Shown: piece by piece, positions 12,047-37,707 of the stretch
Layout: each line of letters starts with the position of its first letter
Numbering within the stretch: the first letter of the stretch is position 1
Source: Acidiphilium sp. PA
Lineage (GTDB): Bacteria; Pseudomonadota; Alphaproteobacteria; Acetobacterales; Acetobacteraceae
Length of the DNA stretch: 64,000 bases
Direction of reading: 5' to 3'
Assembly (NCBI RefSeq): GCF_026191915.1
Contig: NZ_JAIMBY010000001.1
Coordinates: 496,001-560,000, forward strand
Notes under the pieces: model-generated
Told to the model about the DNA's origin: nothing
Database searches by the model: none
What the model saw: only the letters and a program-made list of their open reading frames with translations
Program-made: the position numbers and the translations under genes

Positions 12047-13060
12047 TTACAAGGCGGCCCTCACCTTGGGCGTTCGGGCGGCTTTCAGTCGGGCCAGCCG
12101 GATGGCCGTATCTTCGTCGGTGATCAGCGCCGTCGCGAGGCCGGCGTTCAGGACGGCGTGGATTGCCCCTACCTTGTCACGCCCACCGGCGATCGCCAGA
12201 ACTTCGCGGCCGCGCATCACTTCAGGGTCAAGCGCGATGACCCGATCGTGCAGCTCGGTTTCAACCCGCTGGCCGGCTTCATTGAAGAAGCAGCCGAGCA
12301 GTTCGGCAACGGCACCATCGCGCCGGGCCGTTGCGAATTCTTCGGGCAGAACCATGCCGCTCATACCGAGGAAGGCGGTGGGTTTGACGTCGCCGACGCC
12401 GACGATGAACAGGGTTGCCTGTGCGGCCAGTTGAAATGCCTCGACCACGCCGCGCTGGCGGAACAGCATCTCGCGATCGGAGATCGAGTTAGCGTAGAAT
12501 GGCACCGGCGGCAGATAGGCTGCGGCACCGGTTTTGTCGGCAAGCGCATGAATGACGTCGAACGGGTTGGCCCCGGCCCGGCGCGGCACATCGCCGAGGG
12601 CTGAAACCACGGTGAGATCGGGATAGGATCCGGGCGTCAGATGATCGATCGATGCGGCGATGCTGCGGCCATGGCCGATCCCGATGATGCTGTGGCGACC
12701 TTGTTCGAACGCATCCGTCAGATAATCCGCACCGGCGCGGCCGAGCGATGAGAACAGCGTTCTACCCTCCGGCGGCGCGGGGACGACGCGGCAGAAATTG
12801 AGCGTGAACTTGTTCACAATCTGCTGTTCGAGGCCGACACAACTGGCTAACGCGCCGCTGATCGAAATACGGACGATGCCATCCTGCACGGCGCGGGCAA
12901 TCAGGCGTTGGACGCGGGTTTGCGGCAAGCCCAGCCTTGCAGCGATTTCAACCTGGGTCAGCGATGATTCGTAATAGAGCCACGCGACACGGGTTGCGAG
13001 TTCGATATCATCCTGTCCAAGACGCCTGCTGGAACGCACGGCCACCGTTTCCGCAATCAT
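12047..13060 (-). CDS. SorC/DeoR-superfamily sugar-binding transcriptional regulator (EryD-like)
   Basis: A 337-residue regulator. The N-terminal helix-turn-helix is at about 20-60 (LTQVEIAARLGLPQTRVQRL). The C-terminal sugar-phosphate sensing domain of the SorC family follows, with IIGIGHGRSIAASIDHL, LPPVPFYANS and FIVGVGDVKPTAFLG. Proteins of this type bind the phosphorylated intermediate and release the operator; EryD of the erythritol locus is one example. It is first in a leftward unit with the kinase, dehydrogenase and aldolase. An inverted repeat immediately before its start may be its operator. No strong ribosome site is seen, so the start could lie a few codons away. Confidence 0.87.
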   Translation of the reverse strand: MIAETVAVRSSRRLGQDDIELATRVAWLYYESSLTQVEIAARLGLPQTRVQRLIARAVQDGIVRISISGALASCVGLEQQIVNKFTLNFCRVVPAPPEGRTLFSSLGRAGADYLTDAFEQGRHSIIGIGHGRSIAASIDHLTPGSYPDLTVVSALGDVPRRAGANPFDVIHALADKTGAAAYLPPVPFYANSISDREMLFRQRGVVEAFQLAAQATLFIVGVGDVKPTAFLGMSGMVLPEEFATARRDGAVAELLGCFFNEAGQRVETELHDRVIALDPEVMRGREVLAIAGGRDKVGAIHAVLNAGLATALITDEDTAIRLARLKAARTPKVRAAL

Positions 13061-27859: not shown

Positions 27860-29173
27860 ATGACGGACAAAGGTGGGGCGCAGCGGTTGATACGCACCAA
27901 TCCCTTGGGTCTCTGGCCGGACTCGGCATATGACGAGATGGTGGTGCGCCAGGCTTTTTCGGGCCGTAGCCTGATCCTGGTCAATGCGCCGGACATGATC
28001 CGCCACGTGCTGATCACCCGCCACGACATCTATCGCCGGACATCGGCCGCAACTCGTTTACTCAGGCCACTGATCGGGCGCGGGTTGCTGTTGAGCGAGG
28101 GGCGGCTCTGGCGGCACCAACGGCACCTGATCGCGCCCACCCTTGCTCCGCGTTCGATCCCGACGCTCATGGTGCCGGCGGCCCGTGCGATCGATGCCTG
28201 GCGCGAGGCACTCGCCGCGCTGCAAGCACCAATTGATCTGCTCCAATCATTGCAGGGTCTGGCGCTGGAGGTTGCGTGTCAATCGATGTTCTCGCTCTCT
28301 GCAGTCCCGTTTGCCCGGGAGGTTCGCGCGCTGATCGGCAGCGCCACCATTATCAACCTGTCAAAACCGGATTATCTCGACATGATGCTGCCGGCACAAA
28401 TGCCGGCACCGCGCGATTTTCGGCGCTGGTGGTTTCAGCGACGCTGGATGGGCCTGATCAGCCGGATGATCGCGGCGCGGCAGGCGGCGCCGCCCGGTGG
28501 AGCGCCCCGCGACCTGTTCGATCTGCTACGGGCCGCCTCTGACGGGGATGGGGGCGGCGGCAAACGACAGCTGCGCGACGAGGTAGCAACCATGATCATT
28601 GCAGGGCATGAGACCACGGCGCTGACGCTGTTCTGGGCCTGCGTGCTTGTCGCGGATCATCCGGAGGCGCAGGCGAGGCTGGCGGCGGAGGCGGCGACCC
28701 TTGACCTCGCCGGCGGGGGCGCTGATCTGGCGGCAGCGCTGGAGCGGATGGTGTTTACCCGTGCCGTGGTGAACGAGACCCTACGGCTTTATCCGCCGGC
28801 GGCGATGATCACCCGGAGGGCGATGATCGCCGACCGGTGCGCAAGCGTTGCTGTACCGAAAGGCGCCACGGTGATGGTGGCCCCCTGGGTGCTGCATCGG
28901 CACCGGTCGTTATGGCGAGACCCGGAACGGTTCGACCCGGCGCGGTTTCTGCCTGATGCGCCCGGATACGATCGCTTTGCGTATCTGCCGTTCGGTGCAG
29001 GACCGCGGGTGTGCGTGGGTGCACAGTTCGCCTTGGCGGAGAGTTCGCTGGCGTTGGCCGCGCTGATGCAGCGCTTTGCTATCAGCCGGCTCGATTCTGA
29101 CCCGGTTGAGGCCGTCGTCGTATTGACAACTCACCCGAATCGAGCGCCGTTGTTTCGGCTGATACCGCGGTGA
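27860..29173 (+). CDS. Cytochrome P450
   Basis: About 437 residues. All P450 landmarks are present: I-helix IIAGHETTALTLFWA, ExxR in VVNETLRLYPPA, the meander (ERFDPARFLPD) and the heme loop FGAGPRVCVGAQFALAE with its Cys thiolate. No membrane anchor is visible at the N-terminus, so a soluble bacterial enzyme needing a separate ferredoxin or reductase is expected; neither lies nearby. The start at ATG 27860 is uncertain, since no good ribosome site is seen; an in-frame TTG at 27845 is an alternative. It is divergent from the cyclase gene with the CRP-like site between them. Substrate unknown. Confidence 0.9.
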   Translation: MTDKGGAQRLIRTNPLGLWPDSAYDEMVVRQAFSGRSLILVNAPDMIRHVLITRHDIYRRTSAATRLLRPLIGRGLLLSEGRLWRHQRHLIAPTLAPRSIPTLMVPAARAIDAWREALAALQAPIDLLQSLQGLALEVACQSMFSLSAVPFAREVRALIGSATIINLSKPDYLDMMLPAQMPAPRDFRRWWFQRRWMGLISRMIAARQAAPPGGAPRDLFDLLRAASDGDGGGGKRQLRDEVATMIIAGHETTALTLFWACVLVADHPEAQARLAAEAATLDLAGGGADLAAALERMVFTRAVVNETLRLYPPAAMITRRAMIADRCASVAVPKGATVMVAPWVLHRHRSLWRDPERFDPARFLPDAPGYDRFAYLPFGAGPRVCVGAQFALAESSLALAALMQRFAISRLDSDPVEAVVVLTTHPNRAPLFRLIPR

Positions 29174-30124
29174 TTCGGTGCGCAAGGTTCGGGCGCGGAC
29201 AGCGAGCTTGCGATAGGTCGATCCGGTCATGCGACACACAACGGTGCAGGCTGATACGCAAGCGGTGGGAGGTGGCCTGGATGAACAGGCGCACGGCACT
29301 GCCGTTGCCGCTCGGTCGCTCAAAATGTCCTGAACCATTGGCCAACAGCGCCGTGGGGACCGATCCAGCAAGTTTCGATACCGAGTGAGCAAACCCAGAG
29401 ACTATCGCAATCGCTACGGGCCGTGGGTTGGGGTAGCAGAGCGATCCGATCGACCGAGCGATCCAGGGCCCAGAACGGCATCGGCTCGGCGGCCGACGGG
29501 ATATTATGTAGAACAGCACGAAGGTCCTGCGCGGGCATGAGAAGCATAGGGTTTGCCGTCGAGAGCAGGCCACCGCAGCGGCCAGCCGGGGGGGGGCGTG
29601 CGAAAGCGCTTTGCGGCCACACTCGGCTTCGACTGCTGCGCAGTATTGCTGCTCATCGGGGAGGGGCGGACTGGCTGCCTGCATCGTATACTGACTGCTC
29701 GAAAGCTGAATACATGGTCTCCGGTTACATCGATCGAACCAGCCGCCACTAGCCGAGGAGTACCAATAAATGCGCCGCAATGCGGCGTGGGAGGCATACC
29801 CAATTTTGTTTTTGTATACTTTACGTTGGAGACAAAACATAAATTGCCAAATATTTTCGATTATGCAGAAAATTGAATAAGAAATTTAATTAGATCAAGA
29901 ATTTTACTATAGTATTACTGAATATTGGCTCCACGCATTATATTTTTATCTTTTTTACATATTCAGATTGAAGCTGAAAATAACGGCCGCTCTGCCAATT
30001 TCAGGCTGCGTTACGGCCGGCCACCTGATCTTGCCGGAACGTTACGAAGTTTTGTGGAGACAAAACGGCAGTATTGCCCTCTATTTCCATGATCGGACAT
30101 TCAAGAGATGGTGGAGGCGGTGGG
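29174..30124. other. Gene-poor 950-base interval, A/T-rich in its second half
   Basis: No frame here resembles a known protein. Several open frames up to 252 codons exist on the minus strand at 29082-29840, but they have Ser/Arg/Pro-rich compositions, overlap the P450 end and lack ribosome sites. From about 29760 to 29990 the base composition shifts to strongly A/T-rich (runs such as TTTAATTAGATC and TTTTTATCTTTTTTAC), unlike the surrounding coding DNA. It may hold promoters for the sigma4-like gene, or be remains of an acquired segment. I see no tRNA, IS ends or array. Confidence 0.5.
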
Positions 30125-30637
30125 ATGGATAAGCAGGCAGAAATGTTCGAACCGTCACACTTTGCGTGTGGCGCGGCAGTATACCCACACTCATCCGCGA
30201 AACGCACCGGTTGCCGCGATTATAGGTCACGCGTTCCCGCGCGGACAGCACGGATGGCCCTGCATGCTTTACAGTGGATCGCAGCGGCGGTCCCCACGAC
30301 GGCCCCGCTTTTCAGCCTGTCCGATTTGCGCTGGCTTGACACCGACCCAGCGGTTTCGGCGGTTATACCCTATGCACCTGAACAACATGGCTATGCCGTG
30401 CCCGTCATCAGCGAACTGATGGCCGCAGCGCTATCGCAGGTGGACGCGCGGACCCGTCACATCGTCACCTCCCTCCATCTCCTGGATGATCCTTTGTCGC
30501 TGTCAGTTCTGGGGGCACTGCATGGCCTCCTGCCGGAGCAGGTGCGTCAGATCGATGAACGGGCATTTGCGAAGATACGGCGCTGGATGCGCTTGACGAT
30601 TGCGGAACGCCGGCGATTGCGATCAGATTACGATTGA
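30125..30637 (+). CDS. Sigma-70 region 4-like protein lacking region 2
   Basis: A 170-residue protein. Residues about 98-155 resemble sigma-70 region 4 of RpoH/RpoD type: LSQVDARTRHIVTSLHLLDD, PLSLSVLGALHGLLPEQVRQ and IDERAFAKIRRWM, compared with the family pattern RERVRQIExRAxxKLR. The first 95 residues are not recognisable, and no region 2 (core and -10 binding) is present. The start at 30125 is fixed by GGAGG seven bases upstream. The -35-binding helix residues differ (LLPEQVRQ for ISRERVRQ). It may be a truncated sigma factor, a DNA-binding adaptor or a sigma mimic; its neighbours are a receiver-only protein and a double hybrid kinase. Confidence 0.6.
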   Translation: MDKQAEMFEPSHFACGAAVYPHSSAKRTGCRDYRSRVPARTARMALHALQWIAAAVPTTAPLFSLSDLRWLDTDPAVSAVIPYAPEQHGYAVPVISELMAAALSQVDARTRHIVTSLHLLDDPLSLSVLGALHGLLPEQVRQIDERAFAKIRRWMRLTIAERRRLRSDYD

Positions 30638-30824
30638 CGAATATTCTAGCATGTCGGCGGGATAACGAGCGAATACGGCATTATTGATTTGATTATGGAA
30701 TATTCTGGCTGACTTTATTCCTGCTGGATCAAAAAAAACCCTTGTGTTCATATCCGGGCCGCGCCATGTCGCCTGAAATGACGATCCTGTCAGAATGCGC
30801 GCGGCGGAAGGCCGAACAGGTTTG

Positions 30825-31196
30825 ATGAATCCCCGGTTGCCCGGTAAGCGGATTATGATTGTCGATGACGAACCGATGGTCGCAATGCTTCTCGAAAGTG
30901 CTCTCTCGGACGAGGATTGTACCATTATTGGTCCGTTCGATGGCGTCGCCAGTGCGTCTGAGGCCGCTCGCGGCGAAGATCTGGATTTTGCATTGCTCGA
31001 TGTGAATGTCGCAGATGGCAAAATTTATCCAATCGCGGAAGTTCTGGAAAGTCGAGGTATTCCCTTTCTATTGCTGTCCGGCTTCGGCGATGACGACGTG
31101 CCGGCGGGGCATGAACACTGGCCAACAGCTGGCAAGCCGTTTTCGATCGAGCCGATGATCGAGCGAATTTGCGCTGCCCTCGGTGTTGCGTGCTGA
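30825..31196 (+). CDS. Single-domain response regulator
   Basis: A 123-residue receiver domain: acidic pair in IMIVDDEP, phospho-acceptor D59 in DFALLDVNVADG, switch Ser in LLLSGFGDD and Lys in AGKPFSIEPM. There is no output domain, so it probably works as a phosphate relay or sink or by protein contact, as CheY-like and MprA-type stand-alone receivers do. The ATG at 30825 fits the fold; an in-frame ATG at 30795 adds 10 residues. It precedes the double hybrid kinase by 73 bases, which makes that kinase its likely partner. Confidence 0.88.
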   Translation: MNPRLPGKRIMIVDDEPMVAMLLESALSDEDCTIIGPFDGVASASEAARGEDLDFALLDVNVADGKIYPIAEVLESRGIPFLLLSGFGDDDVPAGHEHWPTAGKPFSIEPMIERICAALGVAC

Positions 31197-31269
31197 GCGC
31201 TACGCGTCTGATGCTGGCCATTGCTGGCATACGGGTGTCGTCTGTCGTTGGTAACATGAGGCAACACAG

Positions 31270-34200
31270 GTGACCGGCAAGGCGGCCCCGTCACCGCCGA
31301 ATATAGGTGAAGGCACTGAGCGTGGGCGGATCGTTTATGGGCACGATTGGTCCTGCACGCCGCTAGGCCCGCGCGCGAATTGGCCGGCAAGCCTGACATC
31401 GATCGTCCGCATGATGGTGAACTCCCGCTATCAGATGTGGATGGGCTGGGGTCCTGAGCTGATCTTTTTGTTCAACGACGCCTACCGGCCGACGCTCGGC
31501 GTCAAGCAGGACTGGGCGCTGGGCCAACCGGCAAGACTGGTCTGGGCTGAGATCTGGCCCGATATCGGCCCCTTAATCGACCATGTCATGCGGACTGGCG
31601 AGGCGACCTACTCCGAAGCCATGCTGCTTCTGCTCGAACGCAGCGGGTTTCCGGAAGAGACGTATCATACGTTTTCTTATAGCCCCTTGTTCGACGATGA
31701 TGGTGCGATCGCCGGCCTGTTCTGCGTCGTGGTCGAGGAAACCGATCGTGTGATCAATGATCGACGGCTAGACACGCTGAGGCATCTAGCCGCGGGCGCC
31801 GGGGCAAAGACCGAGGCTGACTTATTCAAAGTGATTGACCGCGAACTGTCGCGAAACCTCGCGGATCTGCCATTCGCCTTTACGTATGTGTTCGATGACG
31901 ACCGGACGGGCGCTCGCCTCGTCGCCCAATCAGGTCTTGTCAGCGATGATCCGGCTGTGCTGAGCGGCGAGATCTGGCCGGTGGCCGGGGTTCTGGCCGA
32001 AGCCGAAACAGTGATTATTGACGATCTCGGAACCCGGCTGGCCGGTTTGCCGCATGGCGTGTGGGACAGGCCGCCCGCGCGCGCCTTGCTGGTGCCGATT
32101 TTACAGCAGGCGCAGGGTAAGGTCGCGGCCGGGTTCATGGTGATCGGGTTGAACCCCTATCGCGCGCTCGATGCGGCGTATCGAGGCTTCATCAATCTGC
32201 TCGCCGGGCAGATCGCCGCCGGATTGGCCTCCGCCCGGGCGTTCGAGGCGGAGCGTCGGCAAGCCGCCGCGCTTGCCGCGCTCGACCGGGCGAAGACCAT
32301 GTTCTTCTCCAATGTCAGCCACGAATTTCGCACGCCTTTGACGCTCATGTTAGCGCCCCTCGAAGATGCCCTGGCGACAACCGAAGGCGCGCTGCAAAGA
32401 CAATTACTTCTTGCCCATCGCAACGGTGTCCGGCTGTTGCGACTGGTCAACAACCTGCTCGATTTTTCGCGGATCGAGGCGGGGCGCGCGCAAGCCCGTT
32501 TCGTGCCGACTGACCTCACCCTGTTCAGTGCCGAGATCGCCTCTAGCTTTCGCGCGGCGATGGAGCGGGCCGGCCTGACGCTGACCATAGAAACCGCGCC
32601 CCTGCCGGAGCCGGTGTACCTCGACCGAGATATGTGGGAAAAAATCCTGTTCAATCTGCTGTCGAACGCGTTCAAATTCACCCATGAAGGCGGCGTAACC
32701 CTGCGTGTGATGACGACCGCGGATCGCCGAGGCGCGCTGGTGAGCGTGTGCGATACCGGCATCGGGGTCGAGCCTCATGAGGTTCCACGGCTGTTTGAGC
32801 GGTTTCATCGGATCGAGGGCGCACATGGCCGCAGCATCGAAGGGAGCGGGATCGGTCTGGCGCTCGTGCAGGAACTGGTGCGCCAGCACGGCGGTGACAT
32901 CGCAGCGACCAGCACGCCCGGCGTCGGGACCTGCTTTACCGTGCAGTTGCGATTTGGATCGACACATCTGCCACCGGATCGGGTGATGCCTGGCGAAGCG
33001 CTTACGGGCTTAACCAACGCCGCTATGTTCATCGAAGAGGCGACGCGCTGGCTGCCGGCGGACGATGCGATCACGGAGGGCCCGGTCGAGCCCGACCTTA
33101 GCGTACGCGCGAGCAGCGGGCAGCATATCATCCTGGCCGATGATAATGCCGATATGCGCGACTACCTGCGTCGACTGCTCACGGCGCAGGGATACACCGT
33201 GACCGCGGCGGGTGATGGTGCCGCAGCGCTCGAGGCGGCGCGGGCGGCGCCGCCGGACCTGATCCTGTCGGACGTGATGATGCCGCAGCTGGATGGTTTC
33301 GGCCTGCTGCGCGCGGTGCGCGGGGACAAGGCGCTGGCCAGCACGCCCGTGGTGCTGCTGTCGGCCCGGGCCGGTGAGGAAGCAAAGATCGAAGGGCTGG
33401 ACGCCGGCGCCGATGATTATCTGACCAAACCCTTCGCCGCGCGCGAGTTGCTCGCGCGAGTGGCCACCAACATTCAGATGGCCCGTATCCGGCGCGAGGC
33501 CGCACGTGAGGTGATGCGGAGCGAGCAGCGTCTGGTGATGACGCGCGAGCGGCTGGATATCGCCCTGTCGACCGGACGAGTGGCAATTTTCGATCTCGAT
33601 ATCGAGAGCGGTTCCACGATGGCGTTCGGCGCGCTGGTGACGTTCTTCGGCGTACCGGAAGCGGTGGCCGCCGCCGGCCTGCCGATCGATGCATTTCTGG
33701 CAGCGATCGACCCCAGCGATCGGGCGCGCGTGACGGATGCTTTGGCCGCCGCCATCGCCGCGAACACCGCGTTCGAAGCCGAGTACCGGATAAACGGGGG
33801 CGATGCGCCAAAATGGGTGACGGCGCGCGGGACGATTCAGATCGACCGATCCGGGGGGCGGCGATTGGTGGGGGCGATCATTGATATCTCCGATGAAAAG
33901 ATCGCGCAGGATGCCTTGCTCGAACAATCCATGGCGCTCGAGGCGCTCAATCTGACGCTGGAAGATCGCATCAACACCGCCGTTGCGGAACGGTTGCAAG
34001 TTGAAGAGGCGCTGCGTCAGGCCCAGAAGATGGAGGCGGTCGGACAGTTGACCGGCGGGGTTGCGCATGATTTCAACAATCTACTGACGGTAATTCTGGG
34101 CGGGCTCGATACGATCAGGCGGCGGGGTCCGCAGGATAATCCGCGCGTGACGCGGGCACTCGACCTCGCAACGCAAGGTGCGCAGCGGGCGGCGACGTTG

Positions 34201-35160
34201 ACCGCGCGACTGCTGGCGTTCTCGCGCCGCCAACCGCTCGATCCCAAGCCGCTCGATCTTAATCTGGTCGTGCGGGACAGCACCGAATTGCTGCACCGGA
34301 CACTGGGTGAGACCATCGAACTCGAAACCGTGCTGGGCGCGCGGCTGTGGCCGGTAGAAATCGATCAGAACCAGCTTGAAAGTGCAATTCTGAACCTGGC
34401 AGTCAATGCGCGCGACGCAATGGCCGGCAAGGGCAAACTGACAATCGAAACCAGCAACACGATGCTCGATGATTCGTATACGGCAACGGATTCCGAGGTG
34501 GTGCCAGGGCAATATGCCTCGGTCTCGATCAGTGACACCGGCAGCGGTATGACTGCGGAAACGCTGAGCCGGGTGTTCGAGCCGTTCTACACGACCAAGG
34601 AAGTCGGTAAGGGGACCGGGCTCGGCTTGAGCATGGTGTACGGATTCGTCAAGCAATCGGCCGGTCATATCACGATCTACAGCGAGCCCGGCGAGGGTAC
34701 GACCGTGCGCCTTTATTTTCCGCGCTATCGCGGTGATCTTCCGGCGGCTCAAACTGATGAATGCCTCCCCACGCCTGGAGGCCTGAAGGATGAAATCATA
34801 TTGGTTGTAGAAGACAATGATGATGTGCGTTCATATAGCGTCATGATGCTGAACGAGTTGGGCTATAGCGTGATCGAGGCCGCAGATGGCGATGCAGCGA
34901 TGGTTCACTTGCAGCGTCCAGGACGGATCGATCTACTGTTCACCGACATCGTTCTGCCTGGACGGACCGGACGAGAACTCGCAACCGAAGCGCAGGCGTT
35001 GCGGCCTGGACTGCGTGTCCTGTTCACCACCGGCTACTCCCGCAACGCCATTATCCATCACGGTAGGCTCGACGCTGGCGTACACCTCCTGACCAAGCCA
35101 TTCACGTACGATCAATTGGCGCAACGCATCCGTGATGTGCTGGATGTACCGTCAGTCTGA
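31270..35160 (+). CDS. Double hybrid sensor histidine kinase (PAS-GAF-HK-REC-PAS-HK-REC)
   Basis: A 1296-residue soluble kinase starting at GTG. Order: PAS-like sensor (about 20-160, TPLGPRANWPASLTSIV), GAF (165-330), HisKA with H351 in NVSHEFRTPL plus HATPase (GSGIGLALVQELVRQHGG), receiver with D668 in LILSDVMMPQ, PAS (about 755-890), second HisKA with H933 in GGVAHDFNNLL plus HATPase (GTGLGLSMVYGFVKQS), and a terminal receiver with D1226 in LLFTDIVLPG. All catalytic sites appear intact, so it carries two kinase cores and two receivers in one chain. The second core is of the AHDFNN subtype also found in two other kinases of this window. Confidence 0.9.
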   Translation: MTGKAAPSPPNIGEGTERGRIVYGHDWSCTPLGPRANWPASLTSIVRMMVNSRYQMWMGWGPELIFLFNDAYRPTLGVKQDWALGQPARLVWAEIWPDIGPLIDHVMRTGEATYSEAMLLLLERSGFPEETYHTFSYSPLFDDDGAIAGLFCVVVEETDRVINDRRLDTLRHLAAGAGAKTEADLFKVIDRELSRNLADLPFAFTYVFDDDRTGARLVAQSGLVSDDPAVLSGEIWPVAGVLAEAETVIIDDLGTRLAGLPHGVWDRPPARALLVPILQQAQGKVAAGFMVIGLNPYRALDAAYRGFINLLAGQIAAGLASARAFEAERRQAAALAALDRAKTMFFSNVSHEFRTPLTLMLAPLEDALATTEGALQRQLLLAHRNGVRLLRLVNNLLDFSRIEAGRAQARFVPTDLTLFSAEIASSFRAAMERAGLTLTIETAPLPEPVYLDRDMWEKILFNLLSNAFKFTHEGGVTLRVMTTADRRGALVSVCDTGIGVEPHEVPRLFERFHRIEGAHGRSIEGSGIGLALVQELVRQHGGDIAATSTPGVGTCFTVQLRFGSTHLPPDRVMPGEALTGLTNAAMFIEEATRWLPADDAITEGPVEPDLSVRASSGQHIILADDNADMRDYLRRLLTAQGYTVTAAGDGAAALEAARAAPPDLILSDVMMPQLDGFGLLRAVRGDKALASTPVVLLSARAGEEAKIEGLDAGADDYLTKPFAARELLARVATNIQMARIRREAAREVMRSEQRLVMTRERLDIALSTGRVAIFDLDIESGSTMAFGALVTFFGVPEAVAAAGLPIDAFLAAIDPSDRARVTDALAAAIAANTAFEAEYRINGGDAPKWVTARGTIQIDRSGGRRLVGAIIDISDEKIAQDALLEQSMALEALNLTLEDRINTAVAERLQVEEALRQAQKMEAVGQLTGGVAHDFNNLLTVILGGLDTIRRRGPQDNPRVTRALDLATQGAQRAATLTARLLAFSRRQPLDPKPLDLNLVVRDSTELLHRTLGETIELETVLGARLWPVEIDQNQLESAILNLAVNARDAMAGKGKLTIETSNTMLDDSYTATDSEVVPGQYASVSISDTGSGMTAETLSRVFEPFYTTKEVGKGTGLGLSMVYGFVKQSAGHITIYSEPGEGTTVRLYFPRYRGDLPAAQTDECLPTPGGLKDEIILVVEDNDDVRSYSVMMLNELGYSVIEAADGDAAMVHLQRPGRIDLLFTDIVLPGRTGRELATEAQALRPGLRVLFTTGYSRNAIIHHGRLDAGVHLLTKPFTYDQLAQRIRDVLDVPSV

Positions 35161-35311: not shown

Positions 35312-35340
35312 TTGACATCATTTTTTCCGTTTGTTATCGA
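35312..35340 (+). promoter_or_regulatory. Predicted sigma-70 promoter of the ytfQ-like operon
   Basis: TTGACA (35312-35317), 17 bases, TATCGA (35335-35340): an ideal -35 box, ideal spacing and a fair -10 box, 53 bases before the first binding-protein ATG. The surrounding DNA is A/T-rich, as expected for a promoter. Confidence 0.5.
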
Positions 35341-35392
35341 TAAAACACAACTAAATGACCGCTTCACCAGAGGCGGCGGAACGGAGGAAACA

Positions 35393-36418
35393 ATGAATTT
35401 CGCAAAGCTATTTTTGGCTACAACTGCTTTCCTCAGTGCCACGGCACTGGCAGGTACTGCGCCCGTCGACCCTTCAAAAATCACTCAGGCTCAGTCAAAG
35501 GCTGTGTGTATCAATCCATCGCCCTCGCATGTTAATCTGTCGAAGTTGGTCGTCGGGTTTTCCCAATCTGAATCGAACGCAAACCCGTTCCGCGCTGGCG
35601 AAACCAAGTCGGTTCGAGACGCTGCCGCCAGTTTTCATGTCAAGCACCTGATCTACACCAATGCTCATAGCGACGAGGCCCGACAGGTCGCAGATGTTGA
35701 GAGCATGATCAACCAAGGTGCCCAGGCTCTCGTGATTGCGCCGCTCGACGCTACTGGCCTGCAACCCGCCTTTGCCCAGGCCGCGGCGAAGCACATTCCG
35801 ATCATAACGCTGGACCGGCACACCGCCGGCACCATATGCACCGATTATATCAGCTTTATGGGATCGAATTTCTACTTCAAGCAGGGCGAGATCGACGCGA
35901 AAGAACTGGCTAAGGCAACAGGAGGCCACGCCAAAATCGCTGAAATTCAGGGCGCTTACGGCAACTCCGTCGAAGTGGCGCGCACCGAAGGGTTTGCGGC
36001 CGGGCTCAAGGCGTATCCGGGGATGAAAATCGTGACCGAGCAGACCGGCAACTGGTTCACCACGGACGCTGAGAAAGTGATGAGCCAAATTCTGCTGGCA
36101 CATCCGGACGTCAATGCCGTTTATGCGCAGGCCGATACAATGGCGTTCGGGGTGATGACGGCGTTGCGCGATGCCGGCAAAAAACCAGGTCAGGTCAAGA
36201 TCGTTTCGATCGACGGGACCAAACAGGGCGTGCAGGACATTGTGAGCGGCTGGATCTATGCCGATGATGAAACGAATCCGAGGTTTGGCCCCCTGGCATT
36301 CTACGAACTTCAGAATTGGTTCGACGGCAAGCCGGTACACCAGCACATGGTATTGACCGATCATCTGTATACCAGAGCAAACGCCGCAGCGGCCTTGAAG
36401 AATAAAATTCCGTTCTGA
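35393..36418 (+). CDS. ytfQ: Sugar ABC transporter periplasmic binding protein, YtfQ-like, copy 1
   Basis: A 341-residue type-I binding protein. Signal peptide 1-20 (FAKLFLATTAFLSATALA). The mature part has the YtfQ-type opening LVVGFSQSESNANPFRAGET, then VESMINQGAQALVIAPLDA, IQGAYGNSVEVARTEGF and NAVYAQADTMAFG. YtfQ of E. coli binds galactofuranose; ligand identity here is inferred from family. The ATG follows GGAGGAAACA. A tandem paralogue starts 255 bases downstream. Oddities: MGSNFYFKQGEID carries one extra Phe relative to copy 2, and two cysteines (in KAVCIN and GTICTD) are kept in both copies, perhaps as a disulfide. Confidence 0.88.
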   Translation: MNFAKLFLATTAFLSATALAGTAPVDPSKITQAQSKAVCINPSPSHVNLSKLVVGFSQSESNANPFRAGETKSVRDAAASFHVKHLIYTNAHSDEARQVADVESMINQGAQALVIAPLDATGLQPAFAQAAAKHIPIITLDRHTAGTICTDYISFMGSNFYFKQGEIDAKELAKATGGHAKIAEIQGAYGNSVEVARTEGFAAGLKAYPGMKIVTEQTGNWFTTDAEKVMSQILLAHPDVNAVYAQADTMAFGVMTALRDAGKKPGQVKIVSIDGTKQGVQDIVSGWIYADDETNPRFGPLAFYELQNWFDGKPVHQHMVLTDHLYTRANAAAALKNKIPF

Positions 36419-36434
36419 AACATGTCGGCGCGGG

Positions 36435-36456
36435 CCGGTCGAAGCTAGTCGACCGG
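36435..36456 (+). terminator. Hairpin after the first ytfQ copy
   Basis: CCGGTCGA/TCGACCGG forms a perfect 8-bp stem around AGCTAG, 16 bases after the stop codon. No T-run follows. It may attenuate transcription between the two binding-protein genes, or protect the 3' end of the first message so that the binding protein is made in excess. Confidence 0.45.
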
Positions 36457-36672
36457 TTCGCTGCGGCGGTCCATCAAAGGCATGATTGACGATGCAAGAA
36501 ACTGCGTTTATCTTCTAGTCCAGAACAAGGTTCTAAATTATGGAACAGACGAACGGTCTGAGGTTGGGTCAGCATGATCGTGCTGGCCCTAGCGGTTCAG
36601 GTTGTTCGATACGGTTCGGTCGGGATAATTCTGCCTTTTCTTGCTGCCGCCAATAAACGGAGGAAACCAACA

Positions 36673-37707
36673 ATGGCCATCAAGACATCATGGGTCGTCA
36701 CATCAGTCGCTTGTGCCGCAGCACTCGCGGGCGTGGCGCATGCCCAGTCGCCGTCGCCGCACGCCGCGCAGATGATCCGCTCGCGCTCCAAGGCGGTTTG
36801 CGTCAATCCGCATCCCAACCATATGAAAATCTCGGCCATTGTCGTCGGGTTTTCGCAATCGCAGGGCAATGAAAATCCGTTCCGCGCGGAGGAGACCAAA
36901 TCCCTCAAGGATGCGGCTGCATCGTTTCATGCCAAGCGCTACGTTTATACCAACGCACACAGCAACGAGGCCAAGCAGGTCGCCGATGTGGAGAGCATGA
37001 TCAATCAGGGTGCCCAGGCGCTCGTGATCGCGCCGCTGAACTCGACCGGGCTGCAACCGGCGTTCGCTCAGGCGGTCGGCAAGCATATTCCGATCATCAC
37101 GATCGATCGCCATACCGCCGGCACTGATTGCACCGATTATCTCAGCTTCATGGGCTCGAATTTTTACAAGCAGGGCGAGATCGACGGCGAGCAACTCGCC
37201 AAGGCGACCGGCGGCCATGCGGTGATCGCCGAAATCCAGGGTGCGTACGGCAATTCGGTCGAGACCGCGCGGACCAAGGGGTTTGCCGCAGCAATCCATA
37301 AATATCCGGGCATGAAGATCATTGCGGCACAGACCGGCAATTGGTCGACGACCGACGCGCAGACCGTGATGAGCCAGATTTTGCTGGCGCATCCGAACGT
37401 CAATGCGGTCTACACCCAAAGCGACACGATGGCGTTCGGCGCGATCACGGCGCTGCGGGATGCCGGCAAAAAGCCGGGTCAGGTCAAGATCGTGACGATC
37501 GATGGCACCAAGCAGGGCGTGCAGGATATCGTCAGCGGGTGGGTCTATGCCGATGATGAAACCAATCCGCGCTTCGGGCCCATTGCGCTGCACGAGATCC
37601 AGAACTGGTTCGACGGCAAGCCCGTGCCGCAGACCATCGTGATCAAGGATCATCTCTACACGCAGGCCGATGCCAAATCGGCTCTCGCGAGCGATGCGCC
37701 CTACTAA
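36673..37707 (+). CDS. ytfQ: Sugar ABC transporter periplasmic binding protein, YtfQ-like, copy 2
   Basis: A 344-residue paralogue of the preceding gene with nearly the same core (VVGFSQSQGNENPFRAEETK, VESMINQGAQALVIAPLNS, IQGAYGNSVETARTKGF). Signal peptide 1-24 (VACAAALAGVAHA cut before QSP). The ATG at 36673 follows GGAGGAAACCAACA; the longer upstream frame includes intergenic DNA and was rejected. Divergence is largest in the signal peptide and N-terminal linker. Its own upstream region of 254 bases may carry a second promoter, so the copies could be expressed under different conditions. It is followed directly by the ATPase gene. Confidence 0.88.
   Translation: MAIKTSWVVTSVACAAALAGVAHAQSPSPHAAQMIRSRSKAVCVNPHPNHMKISAIVVGFSQSQGNENPFRAEETKSLKDAAASFHAKRYVYTNAHSNEAKQVADVESMINQGAQALVIAPLNSTGLQPAFAQAVGKHIPIITIDRHTAGTDCTDYLSFMGSNFYKQGEIDGEQLAKATGGHAVIAEIQGAYGNSVETARTKGFAAAIHKYPGMKIIAAQTGNWSTTDAQTVMSQILLAHPNVNAVYTQSDTMAFGAITALRDAGKKPGQVKIVTIDGTKQGVQDIVSGWVYADDETNPRFGPIALHEIQNWFDGKPVPQTIVIKDHLYTQADAKSALASDAPY

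Follow-up and report, generated by a model that had tools for sequence, protein, structure and literature searches.

We analysed a stretch of 64,000 nucleotides from the genome of Acidiphilium sp. PA (the window), in which a 170-aa ORF beginning with ATG coded for a sigma-like protein with region 4 only. Downstream of it, on the same strand, lay the genes of a single-domain receiver and of a double hybrid kinase (Table 1). The host is an acid-loving bacterium, and the region 4 protein is small, fast-evolving and preserved (see below).

The conserved start of the receiver was at 30825 and not at 30795. The receiver motifs, PFLLLSGF in the window and PFMLLSGY and RFLLLSGY in others, were degenerate forms of PFXFATG(G/Y), the FATGUY motif as given in excerpts of a published description (PMC5964349). 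The receiver also showed a weak match to PhyR (NCBIfam). The kinase was of the HisKA type, with no match to HWE or HisKA2 in Pfam. Past the kinase, two tandem periplasmic sugar-binding-like proteins (35312-37707) were 76% identical over 314 residues, the second being a Peripla_BP_4 protein. On the other side of the locus, a methyltransferase-like gene with an open frame in the related genome G005 (L026:5810-6373) had a diverged counterpart at 29151-29702 that seemed degenerate: the proteins were 33% identical, and two blocks of the DNA alignment were shifted by one base relative to each other.

Table 1 Features of the region 4 locus, in window positions
Feature	Position	Strand	Evidence or remark
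Conserved upstream block, 57 bp; core GTTACNAAGTTTTGTG at 30041-30056	30022..30078	+	Common to all three carriers
Inverted repeat GTTTTGT-GGAG-ACAAAAC, putative operator	30049..30066	.	Arms 7/7 in window and G005, 6/7 in G012
Putative sigma70-like promoter GAGACA-N17-TCTATT	30057..30085	+	Inferred by eye; weak in G012
Shine-Dalgarno-like GGAGG	30113..30117	+	Sequence; 7 nt 5' of ATG
Region-4-only sigma-like protein, 170 aa	30125..30637	+	ORF, profile matches, relatives, AlphaFold, Foldseek
Variable N-terminal part, residues 1-94	30125..30406	+	Low-confidence model (pLDDT), omega vs G005
Sigma region 4, RpoH type, residues 95-163	30407..30613	+	Pfam, NCBIfam, alignment, pLDDT, Foldseek, omega
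Candidate RpoH-type promoter CTTGTG-N16-GCCATGT, 5' of receiver	30741..30769	+	Aligned CTTG-N19-CCA, 5/5 genomes
Single-domain receiver, 123 aa, FATGUY-like PFLLLSGF motif	30825..31196	+	Pfam Response_reg 29.8 bits, cut-off 30.2
Double hybrid kinase PAS-GAF-HisKA-HATPase-REC-PAS-HisKA-HATPase-REC	31270..35160	+	Pfam, NCBIfam; second PAS below cut-off

Sequence and fold of the region 4 protein

A sequence-only reading of the locus had described the C-terminal part as an RpoH-like region 4, quoting VRQIDERAFAKIRRW, and region 2 as missing. The quoted residues were found in the protein, and both the profile matches and the fold found by Foldseek bore this description out. The best family match was to NCBIfam RpoH (residues 97-155, E=1.4e-9), at 38 bits over these residues only, as compared with the 323-bit cut-off of a full-length RpoH with regions 2, 3 and 4; the rest of RpoH had no match in this NCBIfam search, and region 2 was absent by Pfam and NCBIfam profile searches. 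Pfam Sigma70_r4 (PF04545) matched residues 102-152 (E=2.8e-4, 20.8 bits vs a cut-off of 24.1), and in a genome-wide Sigma70_r4 search the gene scored 23.1 bits, as one of ten matches in its own genome. The other Sigma70_r4 match in the window (12047-13060) belonged to a protein that has a Sugar-bind domain (PF04198), and we therefore regard it as a cross-match to the helix-turn-helix of a sugar-responsive regulator.

A PDB sequence search with the protein gave nothing significant, the best sigma match having E=0.066. In an AlphaFold model, whose input alignment held the three stand-alone proteins (see below) and 19 region 4 fragments of other sigma factors that we labelled as RpoH, the mean pLDDT per ten residues was 90-98 for residues 101-160 and 41-58 for residues 1-90. 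The fold likeness to region 4, whose lack would have spoken against the sequence-only reading, was found when this model was compared with the PDB by Foldseek: E. coli sigma32 ranked at the top (E=0.024), followed by isolated sigma region 4 chains with TM to target of 0.62-0.80, a probability near 1 and no E below 0.001. The part modelled with pLDDT of 90-98 thus resembled isolated region 4 chains at those TM values.

The protein shares with RpoH (sigma32) the best-matching residues, the fold and the V-R-Q-I core of the recognition helix, which was retained in all three stand-alone proteins. It differs from RpoH in its length, 170 aa vs the 302-338 aa of the RpoH-like frames of the genus, and in the loss of the R-E pair of the recognition helix, where the alignment showed PEQ, SDQ and PAR in place of RER. 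The R-E pair has a role in reading the -35 element, and since it is not kept, binding to the -35 may be weak or altered; with the core kept and the pair lost, contact with the flap may be more important than the reading of bases. In a tree of 69 columns, mostly unresolved apart from this group, the three stand-alone proteins formed a single clade (98/94) that fell with RpoH/RpoD, beside RpoH and away from the ECF sigmas.

The first 95 or so residues had been said to match nothing known, and indeed no Pfam family matched the N-terminus. We considered remnants of RpoH in this part: the alignment score to RpoH was reached by 112 of 300 shuffles for G005 and 192 of 300 for the third carrier, G012, neither of them significant. 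It was reached by four of 300 for the window, whose own N-terminus is therefore marginal in its likeness to RpoH.

Distribution, gene order and constraint

Short region-4-only genes were found in three of 13 Acidiphilium genomes, namely the window's own, G005 (about 53-54% protein identity) and G012 (43% over residues 84-164), and the other 14 matches listed for the 13 genomes were RpoH-looking frames of 302-338 aa. Of 397 genomes of the family, searched at E<=1e-9 with at most nine candidates scored per genome, 34 matched; the short frames were the three genes already mentioned and the other 31 were of at least 299 aa. At E<=1e-14 in 299 genomes of the order, only the window's genome and G005 had short frames among the matches listed, a list without G012, and the rest were of at least 295 aa. 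A first scan of a named contig collection gave no relative; in a second one, among the 80 of 172 relatives listed, two from Acidiphilium were short and the other 78 were of at least 271 aa. A divergent stand-alone relative below the thresholds of these wider searches could be missed, and at these thresholds the gene was found only in one Acidiphilium lineage. Among articles in PMC under open licences, none was found that deals with an RpoH region 4 standing alone or with the control of RpoH in Acidiphilium.

An origin from a phage or plasmid was also considered and rejected, as searches of plasmid and phage records (E<=1e-5) and of viral contigs gave no protein match. PHROGs returned a generic sigma factor only (E=8e-4). 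The BFVD set contains short phage proteins named for the region 4 domain (82-136 aa), which are comparable in kind; however, fold matches to BFVD were weak, the best listed (E 0.0035) being to a 256-aa sigma factor, and sequence relatives were absent from the phage records and viral contigs.

The order region 4 gene, receiver, double hybrid kinase was the same, on one strand, in all three carriers, so that the linkage suggested for checking by the sequence-only reading was conserved, with the pair adjoining the region 4 gene in 3/3. Two further genomes, G001 and G002, had the receiver (71-72%) and the kinase (74%) and lacked the region 4 gene; at its position they carried a NUDIX gene and an unrelated ORF that matched MDMPI_N weakly. 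These five pair-bearing genomes were placed by an RpoH tree outside the group of the other eight (support 80/85). Upstream, the window and G005 had isomerase-like, cyclase and P450 genes in common; none of these was found in the stretches of G012, G001 and G002 that we examined, and in G012 the locus was located between a PRC-barrel gene and a Mn-catalase gene. Since the locus is arranged one way in G012 and another way in the window and G005, the region 4 gene and the pair most likely remained together during a rearrangement. A Mn-catalase gene (PF05067) was present 3' of the kinase in G012 (L027:16751-17596), G002 (L095:2430-3164) and G001 (L096:2880-3629), and was not found in the window; the G005 contig ends 300 bp past the kinase, which bounds this comparison. 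The adjacency hints at a role of the receiver-kinase pair in oxidative stress.

A full-length sigma gene at this site in relatives, which had been named as the sign of a truncated pseudogene, was not seen in any pair-bearing relative within the stretches read (1.9 kb upstream in G001). The relatives carried either a region-4-only gene (G005, G012) or no sigma gene next to the receiver (G001, G002), and because G005 and G012 keep the former in the same order with no full sigma there, we discarded the possibility of a truncated pseudogene. G012 had a full rpoH (L027:5441-6445) on the same strand, some 5 kb upstream and separated by other genes; rpoH was on another contig in the window's genome and G005, and far away in G002. 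The proximity in G012 is compatible with an origin of the region 4 gene by duplication.

Relative to G005, omega was 0.17 for region 4, 0.42 for the N-terminal part, 0.08 for the receiver and the kinase, and 0.18 for the P450 gene. Among 300 neutral simulations, none was as low as observed for region 4 and three were for the N-terminus. Region 4 is under purifying selection, which is weak on the N-terminus, and by this measure the gene is kept though quickly changing. Together with the gene order shared by the three carriers, this selection upheld the claim that the stand-alone gene is real. The window and G005 proteins were about 53-54% identical vs 92% for both neighbours, receiver and kinase, and dS was doubled (1.09 vs ~0.55 for the neighbours; 30125-30637 vs L026:4804-5373); recombination, local mutation or a weaker constraint on codons could account for this.

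Fast evolution, an N-terminus hardly alignable in G012 and a presence in only 3/13 genomes would also be expected if the gene were a slowly decaying fragment of rpoH, still translated and with little or no function; the neighbouring methyltransferase-like gene, open in G005 and degenerate-looking in the window, points the same way. This explanation seems rather unlikely, however, as omega of region 4 was similar to that of the nearby P450 gene, the reading frame was kept with indels in threes, the upstream element was conserved (see below), and the gene and the receiver-kinase pair stayed together in both settings.

Upstream elements and candidate promoters

Compared with G012, 43 of the 57 positions of the conserved upstream block were identical, giving a score of 29, and none of 60 shuffles scored above 14. 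A search for the core GTTACNAAGTTTTGTG with up to two mismatches gave 22 matches in the 13 genomes of the genus: three were exact, each 5' of a region 4 gene, and the other 19 had two mismatches each, a chance level vs 37 for the reversed control pattern. The inverted repeat, allowing up to three mismatches, was found at a single place in the window (0.05 expected). It would overlap the putative -35 of the region 4 gene, whose promoter was not called by a consensus promoter scan. A second GGAGACAAAAC, which is half of the inverted repeat, was located 228 bp upstream at 29828-29838 (two found in the window vs 0.01 expected). No Rfam family was found within 29100-31400.

These elements bear on another explanation, in which region 4 would serve as a helix-turn-helix only, binding its own inverted repeat or the receiver promoter as a local regulator and leaving RNA polymerase untouched. 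The helix-turn-helix was modelled at high confidence and the exact upstream element occurred only with the region 4 gene. Nevertheless, an inverted repeat suggests a dimer and may belong to another regulator, and an isolated region 4 is monomeric and a weak DNA binder, all of which makes a purely local regulator about as doubtful as a decaying fragment.

Before the receiver, CTTG-N19-CCA was present at the aligned place in 5/5 genomes, the intervening sequence having diverged; since the window and G005, as well as G001 and G002, are close pairs, these genomes represent three lineages. G001 and G002 retained this promoter and the pair without the region 4 gene. The same pattern preceded one hsp20 gene in 12/12 genomes and 0/18 other hsp20 loci, on a background of 0.03 per 420 nt, and a first, stricter RpoH pattern had matched 7 of 30 hsp20 loci. 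No CTTG-CCA was seen upstream of groES (12 loci), where a TTGAC box was accompanied by an inverted repeat that we take to be CIRCE. RpoH promoters are given, after Barnett et al. 2012 as quoted in PMC4843759, as CTTGAA-N15-16-CCTATAT and CTTGCC-N15-16-CCTATCT; the receiver promoter agreed with these in the CTTG -35 and in the spacing, and in only 4/7 positions of the -10. By comparison, then, the receiver-kinase pair would have its own RpoH-type promoter. The conserved 57-bp block and this putative promoter are new here.

A possible modulator of RpoH-type transcription

Sigma region 4 holds the tip of the beta-flap and recognises the -35 element, as stated in excerpts of PMC7892883. A region-4-only protein cannot melt or open promoters because it is without region 2. 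With a probability of about 40%, we consider the protein to be an RpoH paralogue in reduced form, which would contact the beta-flap, -35 DNA or both and would modulate transcription of the RpoH type at the locus, its effect, partner and sign being presumed. This reading is favoured because of the missing region 2, the role of region 4 at the flap and the -35, the VRQI core kept and the R-E pair lost. A duplicate of rpoH would have lost regions 2 and 3, leaving a protein that might bind the beta-flap tip of RNA polymerase and/or CTTG -35 DNA. It would then act as a modulator at RpoH-type promoters, most likely by competing with the region 4 of RpoH itself. Its foremost target would be the RpoH-type promoter ~100 bp downstream of its own stop codon, and the outcome would be to set the degree to which the receiver-kinase pair is raised by heat or unfolded-protein stress. 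The inverted repeat over the putative -35 may provide dose control, by another regulator or by the region 4 protein itself.

In favour of such a modulator are RpoH as the best match, the clade on the RpoH side, the omega of 0.17, the 3/3 linkage in two settings, and the conserved promoter and upstream element. Against it are the lost R-E pair, the fast evolution, the doubled dS, the pair without the region 4 gene in G001 and G002, the assignment of the RpoH promoter by comparison, the 0/18 other hsp20 loci and the TTGAC-type box of groES.

A possible mode of action is suggested by the late coactivator gp33 of phage T4, which clamps the beta-flap tip in the manner of region 4, although gp33 is structurally unrelated to region 4 (both after excerpts of PMC7892883) and no sliding-clamp link was seen here. 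In Bacillus subtilis, SigO-RsoA shows that region 4 can exist apart from region 2 (PMC8103513, in excerpt). Our protein, a region 4 without region 2, is alike in this, but it is RpoH-like, linked to a two-component pair, and no region 2 partner was found for it. The B. subtilis precedent speaks for the proposal of the sequence-only reading that the protein is half of a two-subunit sigma, with region 2 on a separate protein. That proposal did not hold up well: each of the seven Sigma70_r2 matches in the own genome, a search that a region 2 protein too divergent for Pfam would escape, was in a protein also matching region 4, one of these below the region 4 cut-offs, which weakens the case and makes a split sigma very improbable. 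Stand-alone sigma region 4 is thus already known in kind, and the RpoH-type family here is small and fast-evolving.

The control of sigma factors usually falls to unrelated anti-sigmas or, in the case of PhyR, to a receiver protein acting as a sigma mimic. If the favoured reading is true, a free-standing RpoH-type region 4 tied to a two-component pair would be a sigma's own domain turned regulator, and the effect of a lone region 4 on RNA polymerase in the living cell would become a testable question. Acidiphilium offers natural controls for it, because two related genomes carry the signalling pair without the region 4 gene. A bolder version, in which the RpoH-derived region 4 is a dedicated antagonist or retuner of its parent RpoH, gated by the receiver and the kinase in a genus apparently devoid of the PhyR-NepR stress switch, is a long shot; alphaproteobacteria would then have evolved sigma mimicry as a switch for a second time, independently.

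PhyR is an instance of sigma mimicry by a receiver protein, and the locus recalls the PhyR-NepR-EcfG system, with its SdrG/MrrA FATGUY receivers, in having a sigma-like domain beside a receiver and in the FATGUY-like PFLLLSGF of the latter. In that system the sigma-like domain is fused to the receiver and NepR is present, whereas here the genes are separate, the region 4 is of RpoH and not of ECF type, the kinase is HisKA, and NepR (PF18557) was found in 0/13 Acidiphilium genomes (the own and 12 relatives; the Caulobacter control was positive). The comparison is loose, given the type of region 4 and the 2/5 receiver-kinase pairs without a sigma-like gene. These same two facts, together with a kinase that lacks an HWE/HisKA2 match, also argue against a split analogue of PhyR, in which the phosphorylated FATGUY-like receiver would bind or release the region 4 protein; the linkage in 3/3 carriers, the weak PhyR match of the receiver and the apparent absence of the canonical PhyR-NepR pathway argue for it, and on the whole we regard such a partnership as improbable, though less so than a split sigma. 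The classical general stress switch seems absent on the grounds of NepR in 0/13 genomes of the genus and of no PhyR above cut-off in the own genome. This absence is suggestive and does not amount to evidence of a replacement. One ECF sigma of the own genome (G000:C10, L267) presented a PhyR_sigma2 match above cut-off.
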